Assembly (NCBI GenBank): GCA_021647245.1
Contig: JAKIVC010000021.1
Span: 1 to 55,825 of the forward strand
DNA: 55,825 bases
Source of the DNA: Gammaproteobacteria bacterium
Lineage (GTDB): Bacteria > Pseudomonadota > Gammaproteobacteria > RBG-16-57-12
Reading direction: 5' to 3'
Shown piece after piece: positions 27,938 through 45,711 of the stretch. A model generated the notes under the pieces. It ran no database searches, was not told where the DNA came from, and saw only the letters and a list, made by a program, of their open reading frames with translations. Made by a program: the position numbers and the translations under genes. Within the stretch, counting starts at the first letter, position 1. Each line of letters begins with the position of its first letter.

Positions 27938-27969
27938 TAAAAATACTCCTCAAACCTTACCGGCTATTA

Positions 27970-28476: not shown

Positions 28477-28661
28477 TCTTTTTCTACCATTTTAGCTCGA
28501 GCTTGTATTAATCGTTTCAGACGTCGCGTTATATCTTTACGGTGTTTTTTGACAGTAAACATCTCCACCAAAATAAACAGCAGCAACACACCATACGATG
28601 CCCATACATAGAGGCCATGGCCTCCCATTGCGAAGAATTGTGACGGATTATCCCAGTTCAT
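28473..28661 (-). CDS. ccmD: heme exporter protein CcmD
   Basis: A 62-residue single-helix protein. It opens with QFFAMGGHGLYVWASYG, typical of CcmD, followed by a helix and a basic tail (KKHRKDITRRLKR). It helps release heme-loaded CcmE from the CcmABC complex. It overlaps ccmC and ccmE by four bases each. Confidence 0.93.
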   Translation of the reverse strand: MNWDNPSQFFAMGGHGLYVWASYGVLLLFILVEMFTVKKHRKDITRRLKRLIQARAKMVEKE

Positions 28662-29419: not shown

Positions 29420-29428
29420 TAACTCGTT

Positions 29429-30097: not shown

Positions 30098-30106
30098 CTT
30101 ATGCCC

Positions 30107-30721
30107 TCACGCTGACAGCGTCAGTTGTTTAACCACGCCCTCAATATCCACATCCTGATGCGTAGTGAGCAGCACCACTCCACCGCCCTGCAAGTGTTGG
30201 GCAATCACCTGTTGCAAGGTTGCAATAACCGAAACATCCAGCGCTGTATAAGGCTCATCCAGAACCCATAATTTGCTTTCTGAGAGCAACAGACGCGCTA
30301 GAGAAACCCTTCTTCGCTGGCCTTGTGAAAGCGCCTTAGCAGGCAGATCGATACGCTCTCCCAGCCCTATCTTTACCAAGGCATCGATCAACTGATCCTC
30401 GCTGTGATGCTCACCTGAAAGCATGGTCGCGATGCGCAGATTTTCTAGCACAGTCAACTCATCCTTAACCCCGTTAAGGTGACCTATGTAGGTCAGCTCA
30501 TCTCGGTAGCGCTCTCCCTGCTTTCGAATAGCCTCACCTTGCCAGATAACCTCGCCGGACTCCGGATGTGAAAGGCCGCAAACCGTTCGCAGTAGTGTAG
30601 TTTTACCGCTACCGTTAGCACCTTTCACATGCAGCAACTCACCCGACTCAAGTGCAAAGTTAAGCCCTGTAAATAACAGGAGATCACCTCTTACACATTC
30701 AAGATCAAGAATTTGCAACAT
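30107..30721 (-). CDS. ccmA: cytochrome c biogenesis ATP-binding protein CcmA
   Basis: A 204-residue ABC ATPase. The frame extends to a GTG at 30772, but ATG at 30719-30721 gives the usual N-terminus (MLQILDLECVRGD). Walker A is GANGSGKTTLLR, the signature is LSQGQRRRVSLARLLL, and Walker B is LWVLDEPYTALD. First gene of the complete ccmABCDEFGHI operon. About 208 bases separate it from the upstream tlpA-like gene, so it may have its own promoter. A 13-bp palindrome (30893-30905) lies in that gap. Confidence 0.95.
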   Translation of the reverse strand: MLQILDLECVRGDLLLFTGLNFALESGELLHVKGANGSGKTTLLRTVCGLSHPESGEVIWQGEAIRKQGERYRDELTYIGHLNGVKDELTVLENLRIATMLSGEHHSEDQLIDALVKIGLGERIDLPAKALSQGQRRRVSLARLLLSESKLWVLDEPYTALDVSVIATLQQVIAQHLQGGGVVLLTTHQDVDIEGVVKQLTLSA

Positions 30722-30929
30722 TACATCTGACCACTTGTTTAATGATGTTTCTATCCCGATAAAGTCATACACGGGCTGTAAAAGCGCATGAGTGTAACAC
30801 CATCAACAACACCCCTCAAACCCTTTACCACCCACTCTCAACAAGTGCTCAAATAGAGTAATTTTAAATAGCCAACCAAGCGGGGCCACTGCTTAGCTCA
30901 GCTAATGGGAAAATATTATGAGAGAGCAT

Positions 30930-31481
30930 TTACCGCGCCGCCCTGTCATTACGCACAGCCTCTTCTATCAGCTCACGTGAGTCATGACTATCCCACTCAC
31001 GCCCCCCCGGAATAACTGCAATCACACGCCCCTGCTCATTAATTATTAAGGTAGAGGGCAAGCCCTGAACAGAGAGTGTTTGAGTGATAACATCTTCCGT
31101 TGCATCAAGAAGATTTGAGAAAACCACATTACGCTCTGCAAGAAACTCCCTCACCAGGTGATCGTCATGATCCATGGCAATACCAACAAGCTGGTACTGG
31201 TCATCAGGCAAGTCGTCCGCCAGACGTTGCAGACTGGGCATCTCTTCCCGACAAGGCGGACACCATGTAGCCCACAAATTAAGCACCGTTACCTTACCTT
31301 CAACCGGGGAGTAACTCACCGCACCACCCTGCAGATCCATCAACGGAAGGTCATTTATGGTCTGACCAAGAAGGTGGTCAGAATTTTCAGGCTCTTTTTC
31401 GGGCCAGAAAAACAGCAACAACATACCCACAATCAGCGCAATAAGTACCCATAAAGGGAGTTTACTGTGATCACTTTTCAT
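30930..31481 (-). CDS. TlpA-like membrane-anchored thioredoxin
   Basis: A 183-residue protein with an N-terminal helix (about 9-26) and a TlpA/ResA-type thioredoxin domain. The active site is WATWCPPCREEMP (Cys 74 and Cys 77), and the cis-proline region is VQGLPSTLII. In System II cytochrome assembly, ResA-type proteins reduce the CXXCH cysteines. The gene ends the ResB-CcsA-TPR run with one-base spacing to the TPR gene, so this is its likely job. It is a second reductant besides CcmG. Confidence 0.88.
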   Translation of the reverse strand: MKSDHSKLPLWVLIALIVGMLLLFFWPEKEPENSDHLLGQTINDLPLMDLQGGAVSYSPVEGKVTVLNLWATWCPPCREEMPSLQRLADDLPDDQYQLVGIAMDHDDHLVREFLAERNVVFSNLLDATEDVITQTLSVQGLPSTLIINEQGRVIAVIPGGREWDSHDSRELIEEAVRNDRAAR

Positions 31482-32045
31482 TTACGGCTTATCGAGTTTT
31501 TGCCGCCAACCCTCTATATAGCTCTCGGCTTTGTTGCGATAGTTAGGGTCTGCAGTCAAATGAAGATAGGTGCGCATCGCCCCAATGGCCCCCTCATACT
31601 CACCAAGTCCTTCAAGTGCTAACGCCATACCGTAGTAGGCATTATCAAACATACTACGCAACTCAACAGCGGTACTAAAGAAGTCGTAGGCAATTTTATA
31701 CTCACCTGTACCCAGCAGCGCATAGCCCATATTAGAGTGCGCCTCAGGTAACAGGGGGGTTAGTTCAAGCACGCGGTGCAACGCCTTAACCGCCATATCA
31801 TACCGCTTGGCGTGCAACATCATAACGGCTTGCTGAAAACGTGCATCCGCTTCTGCAAGGCGTACTTCGCGGGCATGCCCCTGGGGTTCTGAGTAGGGGT
31901 TAACAGGGAGCTTTCGATCGGCCACTGCAACCAGCGGCTGGTCTGAAAAGTTTTCGGTTAAATTACTAATACTCACCACAATGGTAGCCACTGCAGCTAA
32001 TGCACAAACCGTAATCAGATATTGGTAGTCACCTTGCTGCATCAC
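31482..32045 (-). CDS. membrane-anchored TPR protein
   Basis: A 187-residue protein with one N-terminal helix (about 8-25). It then carries TPR repeats in a periplasmic domain, visible as AMMLHAKRYDMAVKALHRVLEL, PEAHSNMGYALLGTGEYKIA and DNAYYGMALALEGLGEYEGA. It sits between ccsA and the tlpA-like gene with almost no spacing. By analogy with CcmI, it may hold apocytochromes for the System II synthetase; this is inference. Confidence 0.8.
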   Translation of the reverse strand: MMQQGDYQYLITVCALAAVATIVVSISNLTENFSDQPLVAVADRKLPVNPYSEPQGHAREVRLAEADARFQQAVMMLHAKRYDMAVKALHRVLELTPLLPEAHSNMGYALLGTGEYKIAYDFFSTAVELRSMFDNAYYGMALALEGLGEYEGAIGAMRTYLHLTADPNYRNKAESYIEGWRQKLDKP

Positions 32046-32047
32046 GC

Positions 32048-32905
32048 TTATACAACTCCTTTATGTGCTGAAGCACTAAAATAGGGCGCTCCGAAATAGG
32101 TCAAAAACGCAAAAACAAAAACACCAATCACTAACCATGCACCCACTGGCAGGGGAATGCGATAGGTCATACGAAGATGTATAATCGCCCCAAGATAGAG
32201 CCAATTAAGGAATGAGGAGGTCTCAAGCTCATCCCACTGCCAGTAGCGACCCCAAGCATCCTGCGCCCAAACGGCACCGGCTATCAACATCAAACTATCA
32301 AAGATCAACGCAAGCATCATAAAGCGCCAAGCAATATGATCGAGCACCTCGCTACTCGGCATTTTGGAGAAGATAGGCGCAAACCGTGTTTGACGTAACA
32401 GTACGATGCCTGCTAACCCAACACCAAAGAGTGCAGCCCCTAAAAATATTTTCCCAAATATAACATGTGCCCATTTCCAGTTGTTGTAGTAGGTTGTGGG
32501 ATAGAAGCTGGCAACCGGATCTAAAATCAACACCCAACTGCCGAGCACCCAGAGTGCAGGAAAAACAATGACCGAGGTACCCCGTAAGCTGGGCGCTCGC
32601 CAGTAGATCACCGCATAGAAAATGGAGAGACTCCAGATCTGGCTCATCAGCAACTCAAATAGGCTCACGAAGGGGCCATTTCCAACTCGGTCCCAACGCA
32701 CCCCCATGGCAATGGTCATTAACACAATTGAGAGCAGCAAACTCCACAGCACTAATGATTCAATACGCTTCGTTGAGGGCAGCTCTATCAACACACCATC
32801 ACCCGAGTAGCGGGGTATCATCCCCCAAATTGCGGCCCCTGTCGCCAATGCCAACGCTAGGAGAGCCCCCCATAACCAGGGTAATTCTGCGGCTAAAACC
32901 ATCAA
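32048..32905 (-). CDS. ccsA: System II cytochrome c synthetase subunit CcsA/ResC
   Basis: A 285-residue polytopic protein. Its tryptophan-rich heme motif is WGRYWQWDELETSSFLNW (about 219-236), and conserved histidines lie in KWAHVIFGK and AIIHLRMTYR. It pairs with ResB (four-base overlap) as the CcsBA synthetase that exports and attaches heme. This is the System II machine and is separate from the complete System I operon that follows. The DELET text departs slightly from the usual DPKET. Confidence 0.9.
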   Translation of the reverse strand: MMVLAAELPWLWGALLALALATGAAIWGMIPRYSGDGVLIELPSTKRIESLVLWSLLLSIVLMTIAMGVRWDRVGNGPFVSLFELLMSQIWSLSIFYAVIYWRAPSLRGTSVIVFPALWVLGSWVLILDPVASFYPTTYYNNWKWAHVIFGKIFLGAALFGVGLAGIVLLRQTRFAPIFSKMPSSEVLDHIAWRFMMLALIFDSLMLIAGAVWAQDAWGRYWQWDELETSSFLNWLYLGAIIHLRMTYRIPLPVGAWLVIGVFVFAFLTYFGAPYFSASAHKGVV

Positions 32906-33909
32906 CTCACACCACGCTTTGTTTCATTTTCAAAATTCTTCCCCAACAAGCGGTCCGCACGAGACCAGAGATGCCAACCAAGACCCAGCACACCAAGAGT
33001 AGAGATAAAAAACAGCCAACGCAGTGTTGGGTCATAAAAAATGGTGTAGCCCATCCACATGGTTAGTTCTTTATATTTTAACTGGCCATCATCAAACTGG
33101 AGCGACTCCCCTTCTTGTAACTCAACCCGCATATCATCGATGGTGACCACCAGCACACCGGATGAGTTTTCCATTGAAAGCACCCAATAGTCATCTTTAT
33201 TGTATTCATTTTTTAGCTTCAGCCAGAATTTGATGGTGTTATCACTACCCGGTGGATTCCACTCATTTTTTTGGCGATAGTCGTTAAGAGGAAATGAGGG
33301 CATATTCACACTACCGGTGTAGGCGCCACCTTCACTTGGCAACCACTCAAGAATCACCGAGTAGCCTTTGTTAAACGAGGTATATAAGCGGTAGTCACCA
33401 AATATTAGTGGGGTATCATCACCGACAATAATCTCTTCGGAAAACTGACCCTTTTCGTCCAGCACACCTATCTGGCTTGCGGTTGCCCCACGCTGAACAC
33501 CTGGCTCATAGCTAATCGCGTAAGGGCCTTGTAAAAATGATATTTCATTTAAATCGCCAACATGCCACGGCCCTTGCTGTAACTCGACCAGGTGGCTGGG
33601 ATCAAAGCTCTGCCCAACCACAATTTCAACCTGAGCGTCAAGGTGAGCCAGACGGCCCACCGCAATTACAATAACCAAGCTGAGCAAAGAGACATGAAAT
33701 AGCAGCAAACCAGGTTGACGATTAATTTTACGATTCGTTGCAATCGCGCAGGCTAAGTTAACCGCCAGCAATAACATTGGCACAATTAACACCCACACCG
33801 AATAACCTGTATCACCGCCATAGGTCAGCATCGAGCCTACAGCCAGCAATAACATGCCAACCAGCGTCACTTTTAAAGAGGCCATTGCCGAGAACAGGCG
33901 CATAGTCAA
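32902..33909 (-). CDS. resB: System II cytochrome c synthetase subunit ResB/CcsB
   Basis: A 335-residue protein with three N-terminal helices (within 1-90) and a large periplasmic domain containing EWLPSEGGAYTGSVNMPSF. A last helix near 300-320 follows a GYTIFYDPTLRWLFF motif characteristic of the ResB C-terminus. It is shorter than many ResB proteins (450-600 residues). It chaperones apocytochrome to CcsA. It is 104 bases downstream of the last gene of the cytochrome cluster. Confidence 0.88.
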   Translation of the reverse strand: MTMRLFSAMASLKVTLVGMLLLAVGSMLTYGGDTGYSVWVLIVPMLLLAVNLACAIATNRKINRQPGLLLFHVSLLSLVIVIAVGRLAHLDAQVEIVVGQSFDPSHLVELQQGPWHVGDLNEISFLQGPYAISYEPGVQRGATASQIGVLDEKGQFSEEIIVGDDTPLIFGDYRLYTSFNKGYSVILEWLPSEGGAYTGSVNMPSFPLNDYRQKNEWNPPGSDNTIKFWLKLKNEYNKDDYWVLSMENSSGVLVVTIDDMRVELQEGESLQFDDGQLKYKELTMWMGYTIFYDPTLRWLFFISTLGVLGLGWHLWSRADRLLGKNFENETKRGVS

Positions 33910-34013: not shown

Positions 34014-35180
34014 TTATTTTGGGATAATAGTTGAGGCGGGCAACTTAACCGAAACACCTTCTTGGCCAAGGTATTGAAATATCACTATACGGCCATTAAA
34101 CATATCCGCAATGTAAACACGATCCTGATCATCTATCCAGATACCAGCCGGGAGGTAAAACTGCCCTATTCCATGACCTGTACCACCTAGAGGCATAAGG
34201 AATTCACCATTTTCATCAAACACCAGCATATGGTCTTGATAGGATTCGACCACATAGACATTACCATCACTATCGGCAGCGACGCCTTTTGGTCGTGGCA
34301 TATTACCGACATAGACCCCTCTTTCACCAAATGTAGAGAGAAATTCACCTTCACCATTAAATATCTGGACTCTAGAATTGAGCGAGTCGGTCACATAGAG
34401 CCTATTATCACGATATGAGAGATGGGTAGGCCCGTTAAACTGCCCCTCGAGCACACCAGGACCGCCTAGGCGCTTAACAAACGTGCCATCGCGCCTAAAG
34501 ACTTTGATGTCATGCGCAACCGAGTCCGCAATATAGAGCAGATTCCGCACTGCGTCATAGGCCAGGCCAGTTGGCCGCTCCATAATACCTGCAGCAAAAA
34601 AGCCAAGCGGCACACCGCTCGAGTTCAATCGAATCACCGCCGCAAGCTGTGCATCCGAAACCAGAACCTCGCCATTATCCAGCACAACAACACTCACCGG
34701 CGAGACAAAACCACCCGAACCAGCGTCATCCCACACATGTAGTTTTGCAGTAGCCGGATCAAAAACATAAATAGCCTGACGACTGGCATCTGCCACATAA
34801 ATACGACCATTCGCATCGGTGGTGCCACCCTGCGGTCGTTGAAGAACAATCGCACTACTGCCACCACTGGCAGTAAACACACCAGCAACCCACTTCAACG
34901 CATCAATCAAAATTGCCGTGAAGCCACCATCAGAATCGCTAGAAAGGTTTTGTTCACCAAGCAACTGCCCAACGTAGCGATAGCGAGCGGTCTGCTCCTC
35001 TTTTGGCCAGAGCAGCTCTTTCGCATCTTCATTGGCATAATTAAAGACATACTTTGTCTCTGCACAGCCACTCAAGATAAGCAGGCTGAATAGGCAAAGC
35101 ACTACTGCTGATCGCTTTAAAATATCTTTGCGATTGATGCTCTTTATTTCAAAAAAATTAAAAATGGCCTTACACCCCAA
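34014..35180 (-). CDS. NHL-repeat beta-propeller lipoprotein 1
   Basis: A 388-residue protein by the TTG start at 35180. The lipobox is LLILSGC (Cys 39). No ATG occurs between the TTG and the signal sequence, and no good ribosome site is seen, so the start is uncertain. After the lipobox comes WPKEEQTARYRYVGQL, a short motif shared with the protein at 43658-44695. NHL blades follow, such as GRIYVADASRQAIYVFD, NRLYVTDSLNSRVQIFN and DRVYIADMFNGRIVIFQ. Lipid-anchored six-bladed propeller, probably outer-membrane or periplasmic, encoded with the multiheme cytochromes. Confidence 0.82.
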   Translation of the reverse strand: MGCKAIFNFFEIKSINRKDILKRSAVVLCLFSLLILSGCAETKYVFNYANEDAKELLWPKEEQTARYRYVGQLLGEQNLSSDSDGGFTAILIDALKWVAGVFTASGGSSAIVLQRPQGGTTDANGRIYVADASRQAIYVFDPATAKLHVWDDAGSGGFVSPVSVVVLDNGEVLVSDAQLAAVIRLNSSGVPLGFFAAGIMERPTGLAYDAVRNLLYIADSVAHDIKVFRRDGTFVKRLGGPGVLEGQFNGPTHLSYRDNRLYVTDSLNSRVQIFNGEGEFLSTFGERGVYVGNMPRPKGVAADSDGNVYVVESYQDHMLVFDENGEFLMPLGGTGHGIGQFYLPAGIWIDDQDRVYIADMFNGRIVIFQYLGQEGVSVKLPASTIIPK

Positions 35181-35241
35181 AAATAGCTATGCAACAAATC
35201 AAATACCACAGAAACAAACAACAACCATTCAACTCAAGCTA

Positions 35242-36393
35242 TCAATCGCCTATCTGGAAGACCTGAATACGGCGATTAAGGGTATCCAACACATAGAGCT
35301 TATCTTCATGTACCGTCATTTGCGTTACCACACGAAACTTTCCTGGCTCGGTCCCCGAGCCTCCAAACCGCCAGCGCAACTTACCATCGACAAAAATACG
35401 AATAGTATCATCCGAGTGGCTGGCAACATAAATACGTTGTTGTGAGTCAATCGCAACCGCACCCGGTATGTCGAGTACTCGACGGCTATACTCTTGTATG
35501 AACAGCCCATCATTACTGATGACTTGCATCGGCTTTTGACTAAGGCTGTCCGTTACAACCACATCACCCTTATTATTGACAACAAAGTTGCTAATCTGGA
35601 TGAACTCACCCTTTGCCGTGCCACGCTTGCCCAGTGCGTACAATAGCTTACCCGACTTTGAGATCACAACAATGCGCCCATACACACCATCGCTCACATA
35701 GAGCTTGCCTTGTCGGTCATCATAGTGGAGTTTTTCCGGGTTTACTAAATTCGCACTGTCCTTATACACGTCTACCAGTACATTTTGAGAATTAAACTTC
35801 AAAACACGGCTACTCATCGGCTCCGATACAAAATAGTAGCCTTCTTCGCTAAACACAATGCTCTCGACATTAGCCCGCGTGTACACCCCCAAATCGAGAA
35901 CAGCAATAATCTTTTCGCCATCGGGCTGGTAGCGAAACATCGTGTGTCGAGCTGAATCGAGAATATAGAGATCACCCTTATAGAAATCAAAGCCAGAAGG
36001 TTGTAAAAACCGAATGAAGCGCTCACCCGTAACCCAAGTTGGCACATCAGATGCAATGGCATCATTACCACCGTTGATAGTGTAGAGGTACTCTAATGGT
36101 GGCAGCTTTGATGCTTCAGCTGCAATATCAGCATCTGTGGTGATAGCCATCTCTTGGGTAAAGGAGCTGTAGATATCACCAAAGGCGCTCTCATCAGATG
36201 AGATAATTTCAACTTCACCGCCCGCCTCAGATAGCAAGGTTGACTCATTAGCAAGAGCATCTGGTTTTGATGAGCCATCCGACTGTACCACTGGCTGACC
36301 TGCACTACAGCCAGCCAATAGCAAGATGAGCGAAAATACAATGCCTAGCGAATATCGCCAGTGTCTTTCGGGATACTGTGGCATCGAGCGCAC
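35242..36393 (-). CDS. NHL-type beta-propeller lipoprotein 2
   Basis: A 383-residue protein with lipobox LLLAGC (Cys about 29) and an acidic spacer (36-85). A six-bladed propeller follows, with blades such as GDLYILDSARHTMFRYQ, GKLYVSDGVYGRIVVIS and DKLYVLDTLNRRIQVFQ. The start lies 49 bases inside the upstream triheme gene, in another frame; ATG at 36384 is the alternative. The overlap indicates coupled translation with that cytochrome. Lacks the WP-x-x-TARY motif of the other two NHL proteins. Confidence 0.82.
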   Translation of the reverse strand: MRSMPQYPERHWRYSLGIVFSLILLLAGCSAGQPVVQSDGSSKPDALANESTLLSEAGGEVEIISSDESAFGDIYSSFTQEMAITTDADIAAEASKLPPLEYLYTINGGNDAIASDVPTWVTGERFIRFLQPSGFDFYKGDLYILDSARHTMFRYQPDGEKIIAVLDLGVYTRANVESIVFSEEGYYFVSEPMSSRVLKFNSQNVLVDVYKDSANLVNPEKLHYDDRQGKLYVSDGVYGRIVVISKSGKLLYALGKRGTAKGEFIQISNFVVNNKGDVVVTDSLSQKPMQVISNDGLFIQEYSRRVLDIPGAVAIDSQQRIYVASHSDDTIRIFVDGKLRWRFGGSGTEPGKFRVVTQMTVHEDKLYVLDTLNRRIQVFQIGD

Positions 36394-36905
36394 TCCAGAG
36401 GGGGAAAGGCAATTTTACCATGGCAAACACCACAGTACTTGCCTTGCATGATATCTGCCATGGTAATAAAATTACCACCATTCTGTGGCAGAAAAATAGC
36501 AGGGTGGCAGTTTTCACAGGTAAGCCATTTAGTGTGCGGTAGATGCGGGAACATCACAAAAGGCATTGATGAGGTATTACGCAGAACCAGGTCCAAATCG
36601 ACCGCATGCATCTCAGTATCTCCCTCGAGAGAAGCACGAGGCGTAATCAGTCCATTATCAACCGCACCGATCCAGTCAATCAACCCACCATCATCTCGAG
36701 GAAAATCTTTTAGCGCCTCATAAGGCGGCTGAAGAATATCAATTGACTCATTTTCAGGGTCGTGAATAAGATCCTCTGCCAGCGGGACTTTTTTATTATG
36801 AAGTTGAAAGTGCGCCTGACTATCAAACTGAGCATAAACATAGCCACCCGAGGCTAACAGCAAGAGACAGACAGCCCATAGCCTTACCTGAGCAAATAAC
36901 GACAT
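36345..36905 (-). CDS. c7-type triheme cytochrome (copy C)
   Basis: A 186-residue exported cytochrome with a signal sequence (about 1-25) and three heme sites, CENCH 130, CGVCH 158 and CARCH 172. Spare histidines at 121 and 124 (FPHLPHTKW) are candidate sixth ligands. The layout FPH-x-x-H, CxxCHxxxF, CGxCHxxxAF, CxxCH is that of the c7-type triheme domain family. Residues 40-130 align closely with copy B (38501-39136): both have PAED/LAED-x-IHD-x-EN, LQPP and SMP-x-V-x-FPH. B and C are thus duplicates. It probably carries electrons in the periplasm. Confidence 0.88.
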   Translation of the reverse strand: MSLFAQVRLWAVCLLLLASGGYVYAQFDSQAHFQLHNKKVPLAEDLIHDPENESIDILQPPYEALKDFPRDDGGLIDWIGAVDNGLITPRASLEGDTEMHAVDLDLVLRNTSSMPFVMFPHLPHTKWLTCENCHPAIFLPQNGGNFITMADIMQGKYCGVCHGKIAFPPLECARCHSIPKDTGDIR

Positions 36906-36917
36906 AAACCAACCTTC

Positions 36918-38384
36918 CTACTGTTTAACACCAAGCATACGCAACGCTTTACGCACCTGTTTTGTCGCTTCCTGCATCAAGCGGATTGCATCAGGGTAGC
37001 TCCCATCCTCCGCCATCGCCTCTCCCTTGGCATTCATTGCTTTCGACTTATCCACAAAATTATTCAACAGCATCATCTGCCCTGCCGATGGCTTCTTCTC
37101 TTCGATAGCAACAGGAACTAACTCAGCGTAACCCAAATAACGATTATGCTCATACTCATACTCACCTTGCGGCGTGTCGAGGTTCAGCTCATATTTTACC
37201 GTTCTTGAGTCCAGCATTTCATTGAGCGCAGTTGTTACAACTCTGTCAGCCTGTTCAATATCAGTGATCGCTGCCGTGTAGCGCTGTGCATCGGCATGCG
37301 CCTTCGCGCTCGATTTATAAACAGATACTGCGCCTTGATCATAACCGACAACATCTTCACCCTCCTGCAAAAGCCGATCATAAGCTTCCTTATGGCTCCT
37401 CTCTTGCTGAGAAAGTTGCTCAACCACACTATTGTAGCGTTGTTTCTGCTCGCCCTTAAGGCCTTCACTTGGCACCATCTGTGAAGCTAGGCTCATGTTG
37501 CGTAGCGCTTCATCGATCAGCTTCATTGCCGCACGATTACCACCTGCTTCCTGTAATTCACGCGCCTCTGTTAATTTTTTTTGCGATGATTCAAACAGTG
37601 CCTTTGCTTCGGGGTTATTGCTATTTTTAACTCGCCTTGCTGGCTTGGAGATAACCACCATGTTCGCGTAAGAGAGCTTCTGCTTCAGCTCAACATCCGA
37701 AACCTTCGGCCCATCCCCTTTAACCGCATTCACCCTGCCAATGGTGCCATGCGCAGCCACCAACTCCGCTAATGAACGCGTATCATCTTGATCTACCACA
37801 AAAAATCGAGCACCCATCGCTTTGTGATTTTGACACTGATAAAAGAGAATATCGGGTGTATTTTCATTCGGAGTGATCGTAACGACACCCTTAAAAGCAA
37901 AATTACCCTCAACACCCTCCTCTACAATGTTTGCCCCCCACCCCATCTCATCGGTCGAGACATACATATCGTGCATCGGCGTTGAGTCGATATGGAAATA
38001 ATAACTTTCACCCCTCTTTAGAATGAGTTCCTTTCCCTCAACCCCATCTACAACGAAGCCTTTTGAATCACCAACGCCGTAAAAAGGGTGTTTTTCACTC
38101 TTAACTTTAAGTGAAATAATGTAGGAATTAGGCCCGAGGTCAGCTAACGCAACATCAGACTCAGTAGTGGCCTTGGTCTCACTGAAAGCGGGATCCGGAA
38201 GAGCCGAAGCTGGTAACTCAACGGGTGGAGAGGGTGACTTTATAATTTCTTCTGAGAGCACAACGCCACGATCTAAACTTTCACTCTCATCTACTATTTT
38301 TTCTGGCTTGGTCTCTGTGCCACCACACCCGATTAAAAGAATTGGCACTATCAAGCTATAAGTAATTTTTTTTAGGTATAACAT
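36918..38384 (-). CDS. lipoprotein with a cupredoxin-like domain and a helical C-terminal region
   Basis: A 488-residue protein with lipobox LLIGC (Cys 20) and an acidic linker (25-80). Residues 85-198 resemble the cupredoxin-like domain of many marine bacterial exported proteins. The text SKGFVVDGVEGKELILKRGE is followed by His 138 (MHDMYV), Cys 184 and His 187 and Met 190 (YQCQNHKAMG), the pattern of a type 1 copper site. Residues 235-488 are helical and repeat-like, with no CXXCH, similar in feel to DUF4398/TPR proteins. It is set between triheme cytochromes, 12 bases upstream of copy C. It may pass electrons or bind copper; this is inference. Confidence 0.72.
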   Translation of the reverse strand: MLYLKKITYSLIVPILLIGCGGTETKPEKIVDESESLDRGVVLSEEIIKSPSPPVELPASALPDPAFSETKATTESDVALADLGPNSYIISLKVKSEKHPFYGVGDSKGFVVDGVEGKELILKRGESYYFHIDSTPMHDMYVSTDEMGWGANIVEEGVEGNFAFKGVVTITPNENTPDILFYQCQNHKAMGARFFVVDQDDTRSLAELVAAHGTIGRVNAVKGDGPKVSDVELKQKLSYANMVVISKPARRVKNSNNPEAKALFESSQKKLTEARELQEAGGNRAAMKLIDEALRNMSLASQMVPSEGLKGEQKQRYNSVVEQLSQQERSHKEAYDRLLQEGEDVVGYDQGAVSVYKSSAKAHADAQRYTAAITDIEQADRVVTTALNEMLDSRTVKYELNLDTPQGEYEYEHNRYLGYAELVPVAIEEKKPSAGQMMLLNNFVDKSKAMNAKGEAMAEDGSYPDAIRLMQEATKQVRKALRMLGVKQ

Positions 38385-38420
38385 AACGACCCCCGTCGTA
38401 ATTGTTATTCAGCCTCACAA

Positions 38421-38457
38421 TAATAAAGGTGCAGCACAGCAAACACCATACTGCACC
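38421..38457 (-). terminator. probable terminator after triheme cytochrome B
   Basis: GGTGCAG (38428-38434) pairs with CTGCACC (38451-38457) around a 16-nt loop. The stem is extended by A/T pairs, and on the minus strand it is followed by TTTATTA. It lies in the 116-bp gap between the triheme gene ending at 38501 and the copper-type lipoprotein starting at 38384, the longest gap between two genes in this run. It may be an attenuator that lowers the downstream genes. Confidence 0.6.
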
Positions 38458-38500
38458 TTATTAAAGTGATCATAAAGTTAAAATCACTCAGACTATAGAG

Positions 38501-39136
38501 CTATTGCCATGGATTATCGACACTTGCCGAACTTTTGCTAGGCGCCCAACCTTCAGGCTTGGCCTGAGAATGGCAAAGACGACAGGTGGTTGTCACAACC
38601 GGAAATGAAACCTTGCCATGACATACACCACACTTTTGTCCCAGCAATATACCGGCCATGTTCATTCTGTTAGCCCCTTGCTGTGGGATAAAGATATCAG
38701 GATGACAGTTTGAACATTGAAGCCACTCGGTGTGCCCTTTATGTGGGAAAATCACATCAGGCATTGAACCTCGAACCTCTCGAACAATATCGAGATCCAT
38801 TATCATCGGCTCTTCGCCCCCCCCCATGCGCTCATTACGAGGGCTGATCTTTTGCTCACGCAATGATTTAATCCAATCAACATAGTTACCAAAGTCACTG
38901 CGTACCAATGAGTCGAATGCTATTTTAGGTGGCTGCAGAACATAGGTATTATCATTTTCAGCATCATGGATTCCATCTTCCGCTGGCGGTAGATTTTTTT
39001 CAGCCGGCTTCTGTAGCAAACGATTAAACGAGTTGGCAGAGCTTACCGCTTCCGTGTCAGCCGCCATAACAACAACTGGCGTAGAGACAAGAGCAACCAC
39101 TAGCAGGCCTACACCTGCGAGTATCAATTTTTTCAT
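38501..39136 (-). CDS. c7-type triheme cytochrome (copy B)
   Basis: A 211-residue exported cytochrome with a signal peptide (1-26, ending VVMAA) and heme sites CSNCH 141, CGVCH 169 and CRLCH 185. Histidines 132 and 135 (FPHKGHTEW) are candidate axial ligands. The first 130 residues are a non-heme region shared with copy C. The protein is longer than a minimal c7 cytochrome (about 70 residues), so this region may dock on the barrel or another partner. It is 26 bases after copy A. Confidence 0.88.
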   Translation of the reverse strand: MKKLILAGVGLLVVALVSTPVVVMAADTEAVSSANSFNRLLQKPAEKNLPPAEDGIHDAENDNTYVLQPPKIAFDSLVRSDFGNYVDWIKSLREQKISPRNERMGGGEEPMIMDLDIVREVRGSMPDVIFPHKGHTEWLQCSNCHPDIFIPQQGANRMNMAGILLGQKCGVCHGKVSFPVVTTTCRLCHSQAKPEGWAPSKSSASVDNPWQ

Positions 39137-39162
39137 TTTATATTCCTCCCCTTACCCTGATT

Positions 39163-39582
39163 CTACTTGGCGTTCATTGACTTGTAGCTAGGTGCAACCA
39201 GTCTCTGCACAGTACTACCGTGGATTTGGGTCGGTGTATTAGGTATACCCGAATGACACATGCCGCAGTTTTCAATTGACCACGCAACCTCACCATTGTG
39301 ACATGCCCCACAGAACTGACCATCAATGATCTTTTCCATTGTAATGTCATTGCCGCCCGCTTTAAATGCAAATCCGAGGTCCGCATGACAAACCTTGCAA
39401 CGAAAGCGAATACGATGATACCAGTGTGGAAATACCACCGGCCGCATTCCAGCAGCATCTGCATAATTATTAATAACAACATCACCATACTCTGCATGAC
39501 TCGCCGAAAATGGCAGCAGCAGTGCAAGCACCCCCCCAATAAGCGCATAGCGCATAGACTTAACCAAGCCTTTTATTTTCAT
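39163..39582 (-). CDS. c7-type triheme cytochrome (copy A)
   Basis: A 139-residue exported cytochrome, the most compact of the three. The signal peptide ends near SASHA (30). Heme sites are CKVCH 62, CGACH 91 and CGMCH 106, with H53 and H56 (FPHWYHRIRF) as candidate ligands. It matches the c7-type triheme domain seen repeated in Geobacter multiheme cytochromes. It lies 53 bases after the outer-membrane barrel gene and could be its periplasmic electron donor. Confidence 0.9.
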   Translation of the reverse strand: MKIKGLVKSMRYALIGGVLALLLPFSASHAEYGDVVINNYADAAGMRPVVFPHWYHRIRFRCKVCHADLGFAFKAGGNDITMEKIIDGQFCGACHNGEVAWSIENCGMCHSGIPNTPTQIHGSTVQRLVAPSYKSMNAK

Positions 39583-39635
39583 TTCCTCTCCTCTCCAGCT
39601 TAAAACAAAAAGTTAAGAACTGTGTGTATAGCATA

Positions 39636-41369
39636 TTATAATGCACGGGTCACGCTAAACGTATAGCGCTGATCGATACCTGAAGTACTGGTACGATGCG
39701 AATAGGATGCCGACAACGTGGCACTCAGCAAGCCAAGTTGGTATGTCAGCCTGTTAGATAAAGATGAAGATAAAGCAAGGCCGGTTTCACCACCACCCGC
39801 TTCTGACAACCTGAGTTCTGATTGCAACCGCAAACGGTGAACCCCTAAAAAGCGACTATCAAAATAGCTCATCGCACCCCCGCTATTAGAACTACTTGAT
39901 TTTCCATCCAAGGTACTACTCTGGGAGTAGTTGTAATTAACACTCCCCATTAAACCACTGGTGCGACTCACTCGTTCATCACGACTTAGACTTACTTGAA
40001 GCGCTTGCTGTGAAGTACCTCTATTCAAATCTCGGCTATCGCTCAGAGAGCTCCAGATGCTAGTGGTGCCCGTCTCACCCGAGTGACTATAATTCACAGA
40101 GGCGCTGTGAGAGATGTTTTTTTGCACACCGCCACCAAGTGATAGATCACTGCCACTCTCCGAGATCACTTGTGACACCCCCCCAGACTGACTGAGTGAC
40201 AAACCAATCGATGATCTTTCTCCCAGCTCAAACTGTCTGTTTGCAGAGTGACCAAGTGATATATTGGCAGAGGCACTGCTACTATCGCGCCCGCCACCAC
40301 GGGAAAGGCTATTTGATAATCCCGCCCCAGTATTCCAACCCCAAGTGTATTTGCCCAGTAAAAAACGATCTGAAGAGTATGAGATGCCAATATTTTGGCT
40401 CGAACTACCCGTTTTACCCACCTCAGTCTCTACCAGACTCACCCCAACCCCCGCTGATATCCTCACCGAACGACTCAACCCGTAACTCCCTGCCAGCTGA
40501 GCATCAACCTTACGGGTACCACTACCTGACGAGGTATTCTCTCCTGCGTTTATTGAGCCGTTAACTGAAAAGCTACTGTAATCGGGGCGCCAGAAGAAGC
40601 GACTACCCAAAGTAACCGAGCGACTACTTACGCTGCTCGCCGTAGTAACACTTTCATTCATTGTCAGCCCTGAATTCACCCCAAACTCACTTTCAGGGCT
40701 ATAATTGTGCGACAGTGACGCCGCCCTTCTGGTCGATTCAGAGCCTACTGAGCGACTACTAAACTCTCTTAGCATTGCCTCAACAGCATGAAATTCGAAG
40801 CGCCTAGCGGCACTGATTCCCCTCGATGTGTCACGCCCCCACACCCGAGCAACCCCACTCTGCGCAGGGGCGTTGGTGTAGTTAGATGTCAGCCAGCCAC
40901 TGTAGAGCGTCCCATCGCGTGCTGAGTAGCGCTGATAGGCTGAAAAACTGGTGGAATCCGCTTCACGCTCACTTGAAACAACCCCTAGTGTGTTTGAGTT
41001 TATCTGTGATTCAGTTTTACTATTCGACACCGAATAACTTAACAACAGTGGAAAACGTGAGCGGGGCAGAATATCGAGTGAGACTGATCCCGTCACATTT
41101 CTAGTTGATGAGCCAGAATCACGGGTAGAGAGCCCCAAACCCAAGGAGCCACTCCAAGTAATAAACCATGGCTGCCATATATAACTATCAGCACTGCCCC
41201 GATACATATAGGATCGGGAGCTGGAGGCAGCACCGGCAGCCGACTTATTATATTGAGTCAGAAAGCCAATTGAGCCAGAAGTTTTGATAGGACCAATAAC
41301 CGCCGCCACAACGCTCAACGGCAGCAACAATATGACCACCAACATACATGCGCACAATTTAAGATACAT
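39636..41369 (-). CDS. large outer-membrane beta-barrel protein of the cytochrome cluster
   Basis: A 577-residue protein with a signal peptide (about 1-23, ending SVVAA). The rest is Ser/Gly-rich and alternates hydrophobic and polar residues throughout (for example SLGLGLSTRD, SVSLDILPRS and FSVNGSINAG), as expected for more than 20 barrel strands. It has no cysteine beyond the signal region, so it is not an MtrB-type protein with an N-terminal CXXC. Position among multiheme cytochromes suggests a conduit or secretion pore for them. No named family is assigned. Confidence 0.75.
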   Translation of the reverse strand: MYLKLCACMLVVILLLPLSVVAAVIGPIKTSGSIGFLTQYNKSAAGAASSSRSYMYRGSADSYIWQPWFITWSGSLGLGLSTRDSGSSTRNVTGSVSLDILPRSRFPLLLSYSVSNSKTESQINSNTLGVVSSEREADSTSFSAYQRYSARDGTLYSGWLTSNYTNAPAQSGVARVWGRDTSRGISAARRFEFHAVEAMLREFSSRSVGSESTRRAASLSHNYSPESEFGVNSGLTMNESVTTASSVSSRSVTLGSRFFWRPDYSSFSVNGSINAGENTSSGSGTRKVDAQLAGSYGLSRSVRISAGVGVSLVETEVGKTGSSSQNIGISYSSDRFLLGKYTWGWNTGAGLSNSLSRGGGRDSSSASANISLGHSANRQFELGERSSIGLSLSQSGGVSQVISESGSDLSLGGGVQKNISHSASVNYSHSGETGTTSIWSSLSDSRDLNRGTSQQALQVSLSRDERVSRTSGLMGSVNYNYSQSSTLDGKSSSSNSGGAMSYFDSRFLGVHRLRLQSELRLSEAGGGETGLALSSSLSNRLTYQLGLLSATLSASYSHRTSTSGIDQRYTFSVTRAL

Positions 41370-41403
41370 TCGTCACCTATCCCGGGAAATCATCAGAGAC
41401 GAA

Positions 41404-42375
41404 CTACTTCGCTACCGACAAAAAAGCCGGGTTAATTTCAATTTCAGCATCAGCATTTAACTTCTCTTTCAACCCCTCCCATGCAGCCTCTGTTTGCTCA
41501 CGCACTAGCAACGCCTTAGCCCGCTCCTTCACTAAAGAAAAATCATTTAACACCGCCTCCGAGCGCTCTATCAACTTAAAAATACCCACCCCCTCAAGTA
41601 ACAGCACCGGCTCTGTAATATCGCCTGGTGACATCAGCGCAACCACCTGATCTGCAGTCCCCCCGAGCATGCCCTTATGCAAAAACCCCATATCGCCACC
41701 CTCTGCCGCACTAGGATCAGATGAGTGAATCATCGCCATTTCAGCAAAGTCTGCGCCTTCTCTTAAATCGACTACTAAACCGGCGGCTTTATCTGTCGCA
41801 GCCTTCCAGACTTCCTGATCTGCATAGGCGGGAACGCTGAGCAGAATAATTTGCACCCGATCTCTGGATGGGGTAGTAAATAGCGCATGATTTTTTTCAT
41901 AAAATGAGCGAATCTGATTTTCACTAGGCTCCGGCACATTATCAATCACGTCCTGCTCTACCATCTCAACCAACTTGCTAATTTCAATTCGTGAGCGCAT
42001 ACGGGCAGGAAAATCATCTATCCCATCGATCTCCTCCTGGCTCATCCCTTCAGTACGTCGCATATATTCAGCTTCAATATACTCAGCCGGCACTTCAATT
42101 CCACGCCGACGAGCCTCAGCAACCAGTAAAACCTCATTTACCGCCTCCTCAACCATATCAGCCTGAAACGCCTCAACTTCAGCCTTTGGTGGGGTGCCGT
42201 GATAAAACTTCTCTCGATATCCTATCCGAAGCCGCCCCATAAACACCTCTGCAGGAATCTCAACACCATCAATTTTAGCAAAATAGTGGGCGGGTTCATT
42301 GCCTCCCTCTTCCCCGTGTGCAACTGACAACAGCGCCAGGCTCAAAGCCCCAATAAAAACAAGTTTTACTAACAT
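41404..42375 (-). CDS. periplasmic peptidyl-prolyl isomerase (PpiC/SurA type)
   Basis: A 323-residue exported protein with a signal peptide (1-21) and a SurA-like N-terminal helical domain (about 30-150). A parvulin domain (about 165-275) contains DRVQIILLSVPA, GADFAEMAMIHSSDPSAAEGG and MGFLHKGMLGG. A C-terminal helix follows. It helps exported proteins fold. The location directly after the tetraheme cytochrome and before the barrel suggests a dedicated chaperone for either one. Confidence 0.9.
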   Translation of the reverse strand: MLVKLVFIGALSLALLSVAHGEEGGNEPAHYFAKIDGVEIPAEVFMGRLRIGYREKFYHGTPPKAEVEAFQADMVEEAVNEVLLVAEARRRGIEVPAEYIEAEYMRRTEGMSQEEIDGIDDFPARMRSRIEISKLVEMVEQDVIDNVPEPSENQIRSFYEKNHALFTTPSRDRVQIILLSVPAYADQEVWKAATDKAAGLVVDLREGADFAEMAMIHSSDPSAAEGGDMGFLHKGMLGGTADQVVALMSPGDITEPVLLLEGVGIFKLIERSEAVLNDFSLVKERAKALLVREQTEAAWEGLKEKLNADAEIEINPAFLSVAK

Positions 42376-42395
42376 CTTATTACGTTCCTTTAGGC

Positions 42396-42433
42396 AAAAA
42401 AAAGCTGGCGAACCACAACTGCGATCCGCCAGC
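42396..42433 (-). terminator. terminator directly after the tetraheme cytochrome gene
   Basis: On the minus strand GCTGGCG (complement of 42427-42433) pairs with CGCCAGC (complement of 42404-42410), with further wobble pairs inside and an eight-T run after it (A-run at 42396-42403). It begins 18 bases after the cytochrome stop and precedes the PpiC gene. It would make the cytochrome mRNA largely monocistronic. Confidence 0.88.
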
Positions 42434-42450
42434 CGACTACACGATACTAC

Positions 42451-43317
42451 TTACTTGATATGACAAGCAAGGCAAAGCGCACTGCCTGCATTTGACATAC
42501 GCAAAAAGTCAACCTCACCTGAAGCACCGCCGCCGCTAAGCTGAGAAGAGGTGGTGTGTGGATCGTGACATGAAGCACACTCAACATATGGCTGAGTACC
42601 TGCAATTGTACCGCCACCGACAGCAGTAACATCGGTGCGGCTATACAAGATCATATCGCCACGATCACGACCTGCTCCAGCACCGGTTTCAACATACCAG
42701 TAAGTTGCACCATTGAGCACAGTGGTTTCAACCGGCAAAAAGTCAGAATCGTTAAAGTTCATCCGATTAGCTTCATTACCAACAACATTACCACCCGCAT
42801 ACAGGATACCGACTGGATGATCATCTCGCAGATCCTGACCAATCGCTGCGATGCCGCTCGTCAAGAAGCCATCGCTCGACATAGTGCCCTGGGCACTATC
42901 GAAAGTCCAAGCAGGGCCGCTGTTAGCAGCACCCGAGCCTGGGAAGTTCAACAGAGAGTCCATTGCAACGGTACCATCGTGACATGAAAGACACGCCAAC
43001 GAAACAGAACCCACCAGACCGATACTACCATCGAGTGTCGCCGAACCTAAATCCGCATAGGTTTGGAATCCAGTTGGTGAACTCATATTACGATTCCACA
43101 GCGGTACTGCCTGGCTGATATTTGCACCGTGAGGCGTGTGACAGAAGACACAAATTTCAGTGGTACCACCTGTGGCTACTTTGTTGTCCTGCGTGCTGCT
43201 AACCGACAAGTTGTGCTTTGTGGTTGAGATCGCTGAATCGATCATTGCTGATGCACTACCCGCCGCTGTCATTGCAACCGCAGCTACCATCATTGATATA
43301 TACTTAACTCTTTTCAT
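42451..43317 (-). CDS. OmcE-like tetraheme c-type cytochrome, candidate filament subunit
   Basis: A 288-residue exported protein; signal peptide 1-24 (ends SASA). There are exactly eight cysteines, all in four heme sites: CVFCH 56, CLSCH 109, CASCH 247 and CLACH 282. There are exactly eight histidines: four in CXXCH and four others, H35 (TTKHNLS), H63 (TPHGAN), H167 (DDHPVG) and H254 (DPHTTS). All four hemes can therefore be bis-His. The text ICVFCHTPHGA followed by VPLWNR and the long loop between hemes 2 and 3 resemble Geobacter OmcE/OmcS-type cytochromes, which polymerise into extracellular filaments. The N-terminal H35 could bind a heme of the neighbouring subunit, as in those filaments. 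AGGGG at good spacing precedes the ATG. Alternative: a soluble OmcE-fold cytochrome that does not polymerise. Confidence 0.8.
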   Translation of the reverse strand: MKRVKYISMMVAAVAMTAAGSASAMIDSAISTTKHNLSVSSTQDNKVATGGTTEICVFCHTPHGANISQAVPLWNRNMSSPTGFQTYADLGSATLDGSIGLVGSVSLACLSCHDGTVAMDSLLNFPGSGAANSGPAWTFDSAQGTMSSDGFLTSGIAAIGQDLRDDHPVGILYAGGNVVGNEANRMNFNDSDFLPVETTVLNGATYWYVETGAGAGRDRGDMILYSRTDVTAVGGGTIAGTQPYVECASCHDPHTTSSQLSGGGASGEVDFLRMSNAGSALCLACHIK

Positions 43318-43402
43318 AAACTATCCCCTTAGTCACCATTCTCTTGGCTGTTAAAACTTGTATGGGCAACTGCCCTTACCTCTTTCTAGTATTTCGAATG
43401 AA

Positions 43403-43432
43403 TTTATAGCATTACTCACCAAACAATGTCAA
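43403..43432 (-). promoter_or_regulatory. strong sigma-70-type promoter of the tetraheme cytochrome gene
   Basis: On the minus strand a perfect TTGACA (complement of 43427-43432) is followed after 18 bases by TATAAA (complement of 43403-43408). The expected start point is near 43396, giving a leader of about 79 bases that ends in a good ribosome site (AAGGGG). A small GGGC/GCCC hairpin lies in the leader at 43364-43375. The rest of the 340-bp gap (43318-43657) is A+T rich and has no gene. Confidence 0.7.
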
Positions 43433-43590
43433 CTTAAACACCCCACAGTACTGCTATATTTTTTAACGCAGTTTTTATACCAACCACTCAAAAAATATGG
43501 AAATAAACCATAGCTGGCTGTTTTTTAAACAAAAGCTAAAAACCCCTCAAACCCAACACTAAATGATTTTTTAACAAAAAAATACACACG

Positions 43591-43606
43591 TGACAAAACT
43601 TTGTCA
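43591..43606. promoter_or_regulatory. 16-bp palindrome upstream of the cytochrome promoter
   Basis: TGACAAAACTTTGTCA is a 7-bp inverted repeat around two bases. It lies between the NHL gene (stop at 43658) and the cytochrome promoter, about 160 bp upstream of the -35 box. It could be a regulator site. Read on the minus strand, it is followed eight bases later by a T-run, so a weak terminator of the NHL gene is the alternative. It does not match FNR or CRP consensus sites. Confidence 0.4.
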
Positions 43607-43657
43607 ATTACCGACCAATAGGGGCATTATCACGCGCAAAACGACCAAGCTAGACAA

Positions 43658-44695
43658 CTACAACTTCTTTATCACTTCCAGCTTATTATAGCGCTGATCA
43701 AGGATGTAGACCCAACCCAACTCATCTACCGCAATCCCTGCTGGCAGCGAGTATTCACCTGGCACGTCATCGCCGCTCTTGCCGACAGCGAGCATCAACT
43801 GCCCATCATCGCGAAAAACCTGAAAATTACCATATGCTGTGTCAGTCACATAAACCAGCCCATCCGAGTCCAGTGCCAAACCACGTGGCCGAGCAAAGTC
43901 GCCCATATTTCTCCCTGCCTTGCCCCAGGTGCGCAAAAACAAACCATCCGCATCAAACACCTGAACCCTGAAATTACCGGCATCTAAAACATACAGCTCA
44001 CCCGCTGAATTAACGGCCGCCTGTACTGGCAAGTTAAACTCTCCCTCTCCATGACCTCGGGTGCCGATGGTTTTAATAAAATCACCCTCGCCATCAAACA
44101 CCTGAACCTGGTGATTTCTACTCTCTATCCCACCGGTATCAACCACATAGATACGAGTACCTTCATCATTAACCGCCACATCGGTCGGCCGCACCAGCAA
44201 CTCAGGGCTACCCAACGTCATAAGATAGTGGCCATTCATGCCGTATACCTTGACTTCTCTGGCCGTCACATCTGCCACGTAAATCCGTCCATTACCATCA
44301 ATAGCCACACCTACCGGCTTGGTAAGCGCCCCATCACCACCTGAAGCGCCAATACGGAAAATCGAGCGCGTTGGCAAAATCAGCATATGAACCACCCGCT
44401 GCACGGTATCGCTCACCAGCAACACACCCCCTCTAGAGACCACATCATACGGCTTGGCAAAAAGTGGCACGCCCTCTGGCGCGACCCCCGCCATGCGCTC
44501 CGTAAAACTCGATTTATCCCCAGTGAACGAGATATTTGTTCTGAGCGTACCACTGTACTCATAACGAGCCGTTTCCGGCGGCTTGGGCCAGACAGGCCTG
44601 TCAAATTCAGCTGTTTTTTCGGTTACTGCGCAGCCTGACAGCCCTGCCAACAACAAAGCCAACGTAATTACAAAAAATACGATTTTATCCTTCAC
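43658..44695 (-). CDS. NHL-repeat beta-propeller lipoprotein 3
   Basis: A 345-residue protein with lipobox LAGLSGC (Cys 22). The following WPKPPETARYEYSGTL motif is shared with the protein at 34014-35180. NHL blades include GRIYVADVTAREVKVYG, TRIYVVDTGGIESRNHQVQ, GELYVLDAGNFRVQVFD and LVYVTDTAYGNFQVFRD. A six-bladed propeller anchored by lipid is predicted. It lies 20 bases after the porin gene and upstream of the tetraheme cytochrome. Members of this type are repeatedly found beside multiheme cytochromes. Confidence 0.85.
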   Translation of the reverse strand: MKDKIVFFVITLALLLAGLSGCAVTEKTAEFDRPVWPKPPETARYEYSGTLRTNISFTGDKSSFTERMAGVAPEGVPLFAKPYDVVSRGGVLLVSDTVQRVVHMLILPTRSIFRIGASGGDGALTKPVGVAIDGNGRIYVADVTAREVKVYGMNGHYLMTLGSPELLVRPTDVAVNDEGTRIYVVDTGGIESRNHQVQVFDGEGDFIKTIGTRGHGEGEFNLPVQAAVNSAGELYVLDAGNFRVQVFDADGLFLRTWGKAGRNMGDFARPRGLALDSDGLVYVTDTAYGNFQVFRDDGQLMLAVGKSGDDVPGEYSLPAGIAVDELGWVYILDQRYNKLEVIKKL

Positions 44696-44715
44696 TGAAA
44701 ACTCCTCAGTACAAC

Positions 44716-45711
44716 TTAAAACTTATGCCTTAATCCAAACGCAAAAATCGCATCAGAGCTCACGCCACGGCGATCAAAACTTTTATTGCCATAACCTGCG
44801 TAGATGTCTGACTTGGGTGAAAACTTATAATTCCAGGCCAACAGATAGGATCGACTGTAACTACTTTGCACCCCATACGCCAACACCCACGCACTGTTAC
44901 CCATGATGTAACTCATATCTACCTTATAAACGGCATCGATCACGCCCAAATCCAGAGCGTGGCGCTCAGCATCTACCCCACCATCAAACAACACGCTATC
45001 CGCGCTTTCGTGCTGCAATGAAAAGCGCAGTTGCGGTGTTACCGCATAACCCAGCCCAAACTTGAGCGCAGTTGCGTCTTTGCTTCGCGAGTCGAGGTAG
45101 TCAAAATTCAACTTGAGCCCATCTCGCTCATAACGCACACCTAACGCCTTGGTGTTCTTTTTTTGCTCTCCTAGCGAGTAGCTACCAGTGAGCTTTAAGC
45201 CATGACGAGTGATGGTATCGATACGCATCGTATTGGTTGAGCGGCCACCATCAACACTATTCCCCGCATGCAGTGAAGATTGCATACCAAGATAACCGCG
45301 CTGCTCAAAAACAGTGTTATAAAGCGGGTCGAGCGCTGCGCCAGAACTCTTATATCCTGTCGAAACAGTCCCTAGCCGAATAACACCCCACTCCTGACTG
45401 GCAAACCCCACCCACTGATCTCGATCAGTAAATGTGGCCGCTTTGTCGGTCGAGGCATTAGTGGCATCGCTCTTTTGTTCAGTCGTGTCATATCCAAACT
45501 CAACTTTGTAAATGAGCTTAACACCGTGATCAAGGTCCTCACTTCCCTTGAGGCCAATCAGTGAATTATGACTCTCCATTCGCAGCTCGCCATCGCTTAG
45601 CTGGCTAAACTTATTGACTGAAAGGTGCGCCTCACCGTACAACACAGGGGCGGCCATCACAGGCGCAGCAGCAAACCATCCAAACGCAAGCAGTGCAGCA
45701 ACTTTCCTCAT
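44716..45711 (-). CDS. trimeric porin (gram-negative porin family)
   Basis: A 331-residue outer-membrane porin. The signal peptide ends near VMAAP (about 20). It opens VLYGEAHLSVNKF, contains SLIGLKGSEDLDHGVKLIYKVEFGYD and DRDQWVGFASQEWGVIRLGT, and ends FAFGLRHKF with a terminal phenylalanine. These are typical of 16-stranded Porin_4/OmpC-type diffusion porins. It is the first gene of a unit with the NHL lipoprotein and is preceded by its own promoter. Confidence 0.9.
   Translation of the reverse strand: MRKVAALLAFGWFAAAPVMAAPVLYGEAHLSVNKFSQLSDGELRMESHNSLIGLKGSEDLDHGVKLIYKVEFGYDTTEQKSDATNASTDKAATFTDRDQWVGFASQEWGVIRLGTVSTGYKSSGAALDPLYNTVFEQRGYLGMQSSLHAGNSVDGGRSTNTMRIDTITRHGLKLTGSYSLGEQKKNTKALGVRYERDGLKLNFDYLDSRSKDATALKFGLGYAVTPQLRFSLQHESADSVLFDGGVDAERHALDLGVIDAVYKVDMSYIMGNSAWVLAYGVQSSYSRSYLLAWNYKFSPKSDIYAGYGNKSFDRRGVSSDAIFAFGLRHKF

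Follow-up and report, generated by a model that had tools for sequence, protein, structure and literature searches.

The Uet (undecaheme electron transfer) complex of Tenderiales, found also in six Gallionella, consists of an extracellular tetraheme cytochrome UetA, an isomerase UetB, a barrel UetC, the trihemes UetD, UetE and UetG, the NHL proteins UetH and UetI, and an undecaheme cytochrome UetJ (PMC10734462), and the gene cluster has been named uetABCDEFGHIJ in a review (PMC12575090). In this paper we examine a block of genes at 34014-45711 of contig JAKIVC010000021.1, from a gammaproteobacterium of the lineage RBG-16-57-12, and compare it with that pathway and with other extracellular electron transfer systems. 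Coordinates are positions in the whole 55,825-nt stretch of this contig that was analysed (the window), and the features described between 32048 and 45711 all lie on the minus strand; G000 denotes the source genome, C its contigs and L the fetched loci. A preliminary description had taken the block for a candidate locus encoding an extracellular OmcE-like filament. The block is the published Uet pathway and no scientific novelty as a nanowire locus; the description was right to see in it electron transfer and an OmcE-like cytochrome, and the reading of it as a wire is now plausible and sharper. The Uet pathway is reportedly to be credited to Eddie et al. 2022.

In the filaments of OmcE and OmcS, one heme per subunit is ligated by a histidine of the neighbouring subunit (PMC9473688, PMC12307469). 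PMC13194489, which relays Shen et al. 2025, proposes that the osc operon of Geobacter supplies folding, secretion and morphology functions for OmcS wires, and the periplasmic trihemes PpcA-E inject electrons directly into these wires (PMC10954620). The physiological role of cytochrome wires is disputed: Fe(III) oxide is still reduced by a strain that lacks OmcS, according to PMC11077965. Of interest too is the occ cluster of Candidatus Dechloromonas occultata, which PMC8258643 connects with the reduction of Mn(III).

The source genome measures 2.57 Mb in 64 contigs and is 99.5% complete. All the genes named in the block are intact open reading frames (ORFs), most with their families confirmed by Pfam or NCBIfam matches, and they are transcribed in the order porin, NHL lipoprotein, uetA, uetB, uetC, uetD, uetE, uetF, uetG, uetH, uetI, followed by genes for ResB and CcsA proteins. 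The genes uetA to uetI are thus all present in their published order, and the undecaheme UetJ is encoded in the genome, though not beside uetI. The set had been called complete, which holds for members A to I and overlooks the eleven-heme partner UetJ, encoded on another contig and carrying an OmcE-like module of its own. The likeness to the Uet clusters of Tenderiales and Gallionella thus extends to the components, the A-I order, UetJ in the genome and an adjacent resB-ccsA pair as in many relatives; this genus differs in having uetJ away from uetI and an extra NHL lipoprotein and a porin upstream. Relatives were collected by a UetD scan of GTDB species genomes, which yielded 276 related stretches, of which the best 80 were fetched; a strong UetD match was present in 41 of 369 sampled gammaproteobacterial genomes. 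The uetA-B-C-D-E-F-G-H-I order recurs in most of these best 80 relatives, often with resB-ccsA next, and a metagenome-assembled genome (MAG) of Candidatus Tenderia (L099) has A to F up to the contig end. The block is not a chance assemblage, because the gene order is common to dozens of independent genomes. The porin-cytochrome systems PCC3 and PCC4 (He et al. 2017) were set aside as models, the PCC3 cytochromes being far larger and the PCC4 set having no extracellular cytochrome.

The tetraheme cytochrome gene uetA (42451..43317) encodes a protein with doubled-CXXCH matches and a Sec signal without a lipobox. As a single sequence against the PDB, UetA matched 9YUQ (1.3e-20) and OmcE 7TFS (5.8e-20) and nothing else up to E=1, and a profile of 50 UetA sequences matched OmcE 7TFS at E=8.3e-36 and 9YUQ at 2e-34, with both stretches significant; next came carcinoembryonic antigen at 1.5e-4, a composition hit, and OmcS at 0.011. 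When 7TFS and 9YUQ are aligned to the UetA model, Cys or His stands at all 16 heme-attachment or ligand positions (8/8 His, 8/8 Cys), and in 65 UetA sequences, whose mean pairwise identity is 56%, the four CXXCH motifs and the distal H35, H63, H167 and H254 are invariant. By these alignments UetA is an OmcE homologue over both halves, with its four CXXCH motifs and four distal histidines in the same places as in OmcE of Geobacter sulfurreducens (7TFS) and the related 9YUQ, and it differs by an extra stretch that follows the DHP histidine and precedes the third heme. Of the two, OmcE is the one observed as a filament. Keeping the four distal histidines is necessary for ligation across subunits in UetA, not proof of it, and UetA is accordingly best described as a candidate filament subunit for which a wire is plausible.

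The same cytochrome family is expanded in the source genome, which has seven complete OmcE-like ORFs, UetA and UetJ included, besides fragments that abut the ends of contigs C55 and C47 (L036, L037). The number of CXXCH motifs in a complete ORF is 4, 5 or 11, and such ORFs lie on C6, C35, C17 and C61 (L031-L035); in the tetra- and pentaheme versions an extra heme motif often follows the second heme, ahead of the DHP histidine. All four genomes of the order have comparable sets, and in three genomes from the family a pentaheme paralogue is followed by a gene for a propeller-type lipoprotein (L033:12970-14888, L041 and L049; NHL in L033), a pairing that echoes that of cytochrome and NHL protein in the Uet locus.

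The companions expected of a filament cytochrome, namely isomerase, barrel, NHL propellers and trihemes, are present together, as had been described. Immediately after uetA lies uetB (41404..42375), for a PpiC-type prolyl isomerase with a SurA-like N-terminal part (PF00639, E=1.8e-12), and an isomerase, a predicted outer-membrane channel and a propeller thus all stand beside a filament-type cytochrome, as in an osc-type set. The folding, secretion and morphology functions proposed for osc could be filled here by isomerase, barrel and propellers; the difference is that OmcS, which forms the wire there, has six hemes and no sequence similarity to OmcE, and the likeness of the accessory proteins is one of proposed function and of domain type. 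A terminator-like hairpin between uetA and uetB (42403..42434; 14-pair stem, T7) is found also in the congeners L071 and L072, and in 8/63 loci overall. A conserved excess of UetA produced by such an A-B terminator was considered and rejected, since only these 8/63 loci have the terminator and many A-B gaps are very short.

UetJ has 815 residues and 11 CXXCH motifs and is encoded outside the window, on a 3.8 kb contig (G000:C61:364-2811). In 55 of the best 80 relatives uetI is followed directly by uetJ; in the window and in the congeners L071 and L072 resB comes directly after uetI, and the congener G002 has uetJ and uetA on one contig, about 46 kb apart, which reads as relocation in this genus, not loss. 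The UetA profile aligns to UetJ at residues 17-182 (108.5 bits) and 225-276 (27.0 bits), and the four distal histidines of this OmcE-like part are invariant in 54 UetJ sequences. UetA ends two residues past its fourth CXXCH, where UetJ runs on with seven more hemes. By this alignment UetJ is a complete OmcE/UetA-like tetraheme module joined to seven predicted hemes, from which we infer that it could sit at the heme-4 end of a UetA chain, and its architecture suggests a filament adaptor or cap, at the tip or at the base.

The outer-membrane barrel gene uetC (39636..41369) has no family match; the product gave no hit to Pfam or to NCBIfam (the latter up to E 0.01), the MtrB/PioB model TIGR03509 included. 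The large barrel of the preliminary description is nevertheless borne out by an AlphaFold2 model with mean pLDDT 90.6, 28 long strands and no plug, and UetC is confidently predicted to be a wide plugless 28-strand outer-membrane barrel. In a Foldseek search MtrB (6R2Q) ranked third by E-value (9.8e-8) and had the highest query-normalised TM (0.44) among the rows shown, with many unrelated barrels scoring nearby; VIA-align placed TonB-dependent receptors first at an rmsd near 14, which was read as generic barrel similarity and discarded. A wide plugless barrel with periplasmic multiheme cytochromes makes Uet resemble MtrAB and PioAB, from which it differs in that UetC has no match to the NCBIfam MtrB/PioB model and in having trihemes and a tetraheme, not decahemes. 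That no MtrABC-type system is present is true of the window and not of the genome: matches to TIGR03509 occur in the source genome only at C45, where an MtrB-family barrel split over two frames (G000:C45:826-3551, L173) stands beside a 7-CXXCH ORF and a tetraheme protein. This MtrAB-like set is broken or misassembled.

UetC might serve only as a secretion port, the role proposed for OscE-G, with the trihemes passing electrons to the filament in the periplasm or at the filament base, and not by way of a barrel filled with a cytochrome. PMC13194489 supplies the Osc precedent, the direct charging of OmcS by PpcA-E (PMC10954620) would provide the electron route, and UetC is the least conserved Uet member (30% mean pairwise identity), the trihemes being the most conserved. 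A plugless 28-strand pore would leak unless occupied, however, and the next genes after uetC are those for trihemes D and E. We give this possibility real weight while doubting it.

The three periplasmic triheme c7 cytochromes are encoded by uetD (39163..39582), uetE (38501..39136, with an N-terminal extension) and uetG (36345..36905) and match Cytochrome_C7 / TIGR04257, each above the curated cut-off (64.7, 59.2 and 65.1 bits to TIGR04257, respectively). UetD is the most conserved member of the pathway, with 73% mean pairwise identity and 67/139 positions at least 95% conserved among 79 sequences, and because of this strong sequence constraint we suggest that several partners contact it tightly. 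Outside the Uet locus there are two more triheme c7 genes (G000:C24:40942-41151 and G000:C4:13108-13305), and C24 also has a gene for the RuBisCO large subunit.

Between uetE and uetG lies uetF (36918..38384), for a lipoprotein with a cupredoxin-type domain and helical repeats. Across 65 orthologues H138 is conserved in 98% and C184, H187 and M190 in 100%, and these residues are spaced as in a type-1 copper site; in the PDB the closest match by sequence, a weak one, is pseudoazurin (E=0.025), whose C, H and M line up with those of UetF. The protein had been described as cupredoxin-like, which the practically invariant His/Cys/His/Met set upholds and similarity does so weakly, and by its residues UetF is a lipoprotein with a cupredoxin-like, type-1-copper-like ligand set. 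On a cathode, Candidatus Tenderia has three triheme genes among those that it expresses most (PMC5371394); they are apparently cotranscribed with a TPR gene, and from its place among the trihemes we infer that this TPR gene is the counterpart of uetF. The copper site may be an unreported detail, because that counterpart has been described as a TPR protein. The link of UetA to OmcE, the modularity of UetJ and the copper site of UetF were not found in the open-access text searched, which excludes Eddie et al. 2022 and Shen et al. 2025. A hairpin with a T-rich tail separates uetE from uetF (38426..38459), and a terminator-like structure is present in 33/69 E-F gaps versus 1/64 C-D gaps and is rare in other gaps; the E-F hairpin is possibly a conserved attenuator that separates A-E from F-J.

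As the best overall explanation we lean, with modest confidence, to Uet moving electrons across the outer membrane, likeliest inward, with a UetA wire rooted at UetC. UetB would help to fold UetA for export, UetA would form an extracellular polymer, an OmcE-type chain of hemes with its root at UetC, and UetJ would join the chain through its OmcE-like module and act as an end adaptor. Electrons would then pass between the filament or UetJ and the trihemes UetD, UetE and UetG together with the copper lipoprotein UetF, at or through UetC, and from these periplasmic carriers to the inner-membrane respiratory chain, while the NHL lipoproteins would hold or organise the assembly; energy and reductant would serve CO2 fixation by RuBisCO.

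Several points weigh against this explanation. The AlphaFold2 model of UetA, built with 50 orthologues, has a mean pLDDT of 44 and is unusable; low-confidence models are common for heme-dominated proteins modelled without heme. The region that UetA has beyond OmcE, of about 50 residues, possibly bears on an interface, and any or none of the seven complete OmcE-like ORFs in this one genome might be the polymeriser. Polymerisation is confined to some members of cytochrome families, among OmcS relatives homology does not predict wire formation (PMC12977616), and the published descriptions of Uet are of a porin-cytochrome complex and not of a wire (PMC10734462). As to direction, inward flow is tentative, the occ cluster having a tie to Mn(III) reduction (PMC8258643).

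Uet could instead be a short-range porin-cytochrome complex in which a monomeric surface UetA works with UetJ outside UetC and no filament forms, an arrangement that matches the open-text description of the pathway (PMC10734462) and suits a wide plugless barrel of the MtrB-like kind, and in which UetJ alone could span the distance with its 11 hemes. UetA keeps every ligand of OmcE, however, including whichever one OmcE lends across subunits; the locus resembles the osc nanowire operon in having an isomerase and propellers; and the OmcE-type module is common to UetA and UetJ, as expected of partners in one chain. We regard the short-range complex as possible but doubtful. The most specific form of the wire reading, with Uet as a nanowire system for electron uptake in autotrophic Proteobacteria, UetA as the wire, UetJ as a fusion of wire unit and heptaheme head that caps it, and blue-copper UetF handing electrons to the trihemes, is tentative and, taken as a whole, rather unlikely.

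As to direction, the genome encodes RuBisCO and two COX1-family genes, one of which probably encodes a nitric oxide reductase because it follows a NorC-like gene. Uptake is the likelier and favoured direction because RuBisCO is encoded, and export is also possible. A Rhodocyclales MAG named GT-UBC (L143), which from its strain name we take to be Candidatus Dechloromonas occultata, has homologues of UetA, B, D, E, G, I and J with resB and ccsA; it has one OmcE-like and one UetD-like gene more than the block, and its UetC, F and H are hardly or not recognisable with the window proteins as queries. That the same machinery exports electrons for metal respiration, for which speak the occ cluster linked to Mn(III) reduction (PMC8258643), the homologous cluster with UetJ in that MAG and the reversibility in principle of such heme chains, we consider unlikely in view of the RuBisCO and COX1-family genes (one of the two COX1 genes after a NorC-like gene), the high expression of trihemes on a cathode in Candidatus Tenderia (PMC5371394) and a copper centre that would suit high potentials.

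The remaining genes of the region flank or complete the cluster. uetH (35242..36393; DUF5128/NHL) and uetI (34014..35180; NHL, E=1e-26) encode NHL propeller lipoproteins whose positions are conserved in relatives. A third NHL propeller lipoprotein gene, nhlU (43658..44695; NHL repeats E=1.8e-31, lipobox LSGC), lies upstream of uetA, and a homologue stands directly 5' of uetA in about one third of related loci. The Porin_4 outer-membrane porin gene farther upstream (44716..45711; PF13609, E=2.1e-21) has a strong match, among the fetched loci, only in the two congeners L071 and L072, and is probably a flanking gene of this genus and not a core component. A weak promoter-like site upstream of uetA (TTGACA-17-TATTTT, 43579..43607) agrees with the consensus at 10/12 positions, and promoter-type matches across the region are no more numerous than expected by chance. 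Downstream of uetI are genes for a ResB-like cytochrome c maturation protein (32902..33909; PF05140, E=1.4e-10), which follows uetI or uetJ in many loci, and for a CcsA-type cytochrome c assembly protein (32048..32905; PF01578, E=8.2e-16), which follows ResB in many loci. The reported link to heme-attachment genes is borne out by these and by Ccm proteins encoded below 34 kb; Ccm-type (ccmA, ccmE, ccmF and others) and ResB/CcsA-type maturation sets stand side by side at 23627-33909 of the window, adjoining the Uet genes.

Two cultured isolates, Aromatoleum tolulyticum and Azoarcus sp. Aa7 (L149, L150), have a rearranged Uet-like cluster with uetI beside resB, and their genomes have UetA-like genes and ORFs of more than 1,000 aa with a UetA-like module elsewhere. 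A. tolulyticum ATCC 51758 encodes proteins of the UetA, UetD and UetI types and a large OmcE-like ORF of UetJ type. Both isolates are possible laboratory models. The Uet cluster occurs widely, and if its abundant UetA is an OmcE-type wire, cytochrome filaments would reach far beyond metal-reducing Geobacter-like organisms and extend into autotrophs that take electrons from minerals or cathodes. UetJ would then be a concrete candidate for the piece with which such a wire terminates or docks, a point that a review lists as unresolved, and Uet would be a wire for electron intake with a dedicated end piece.

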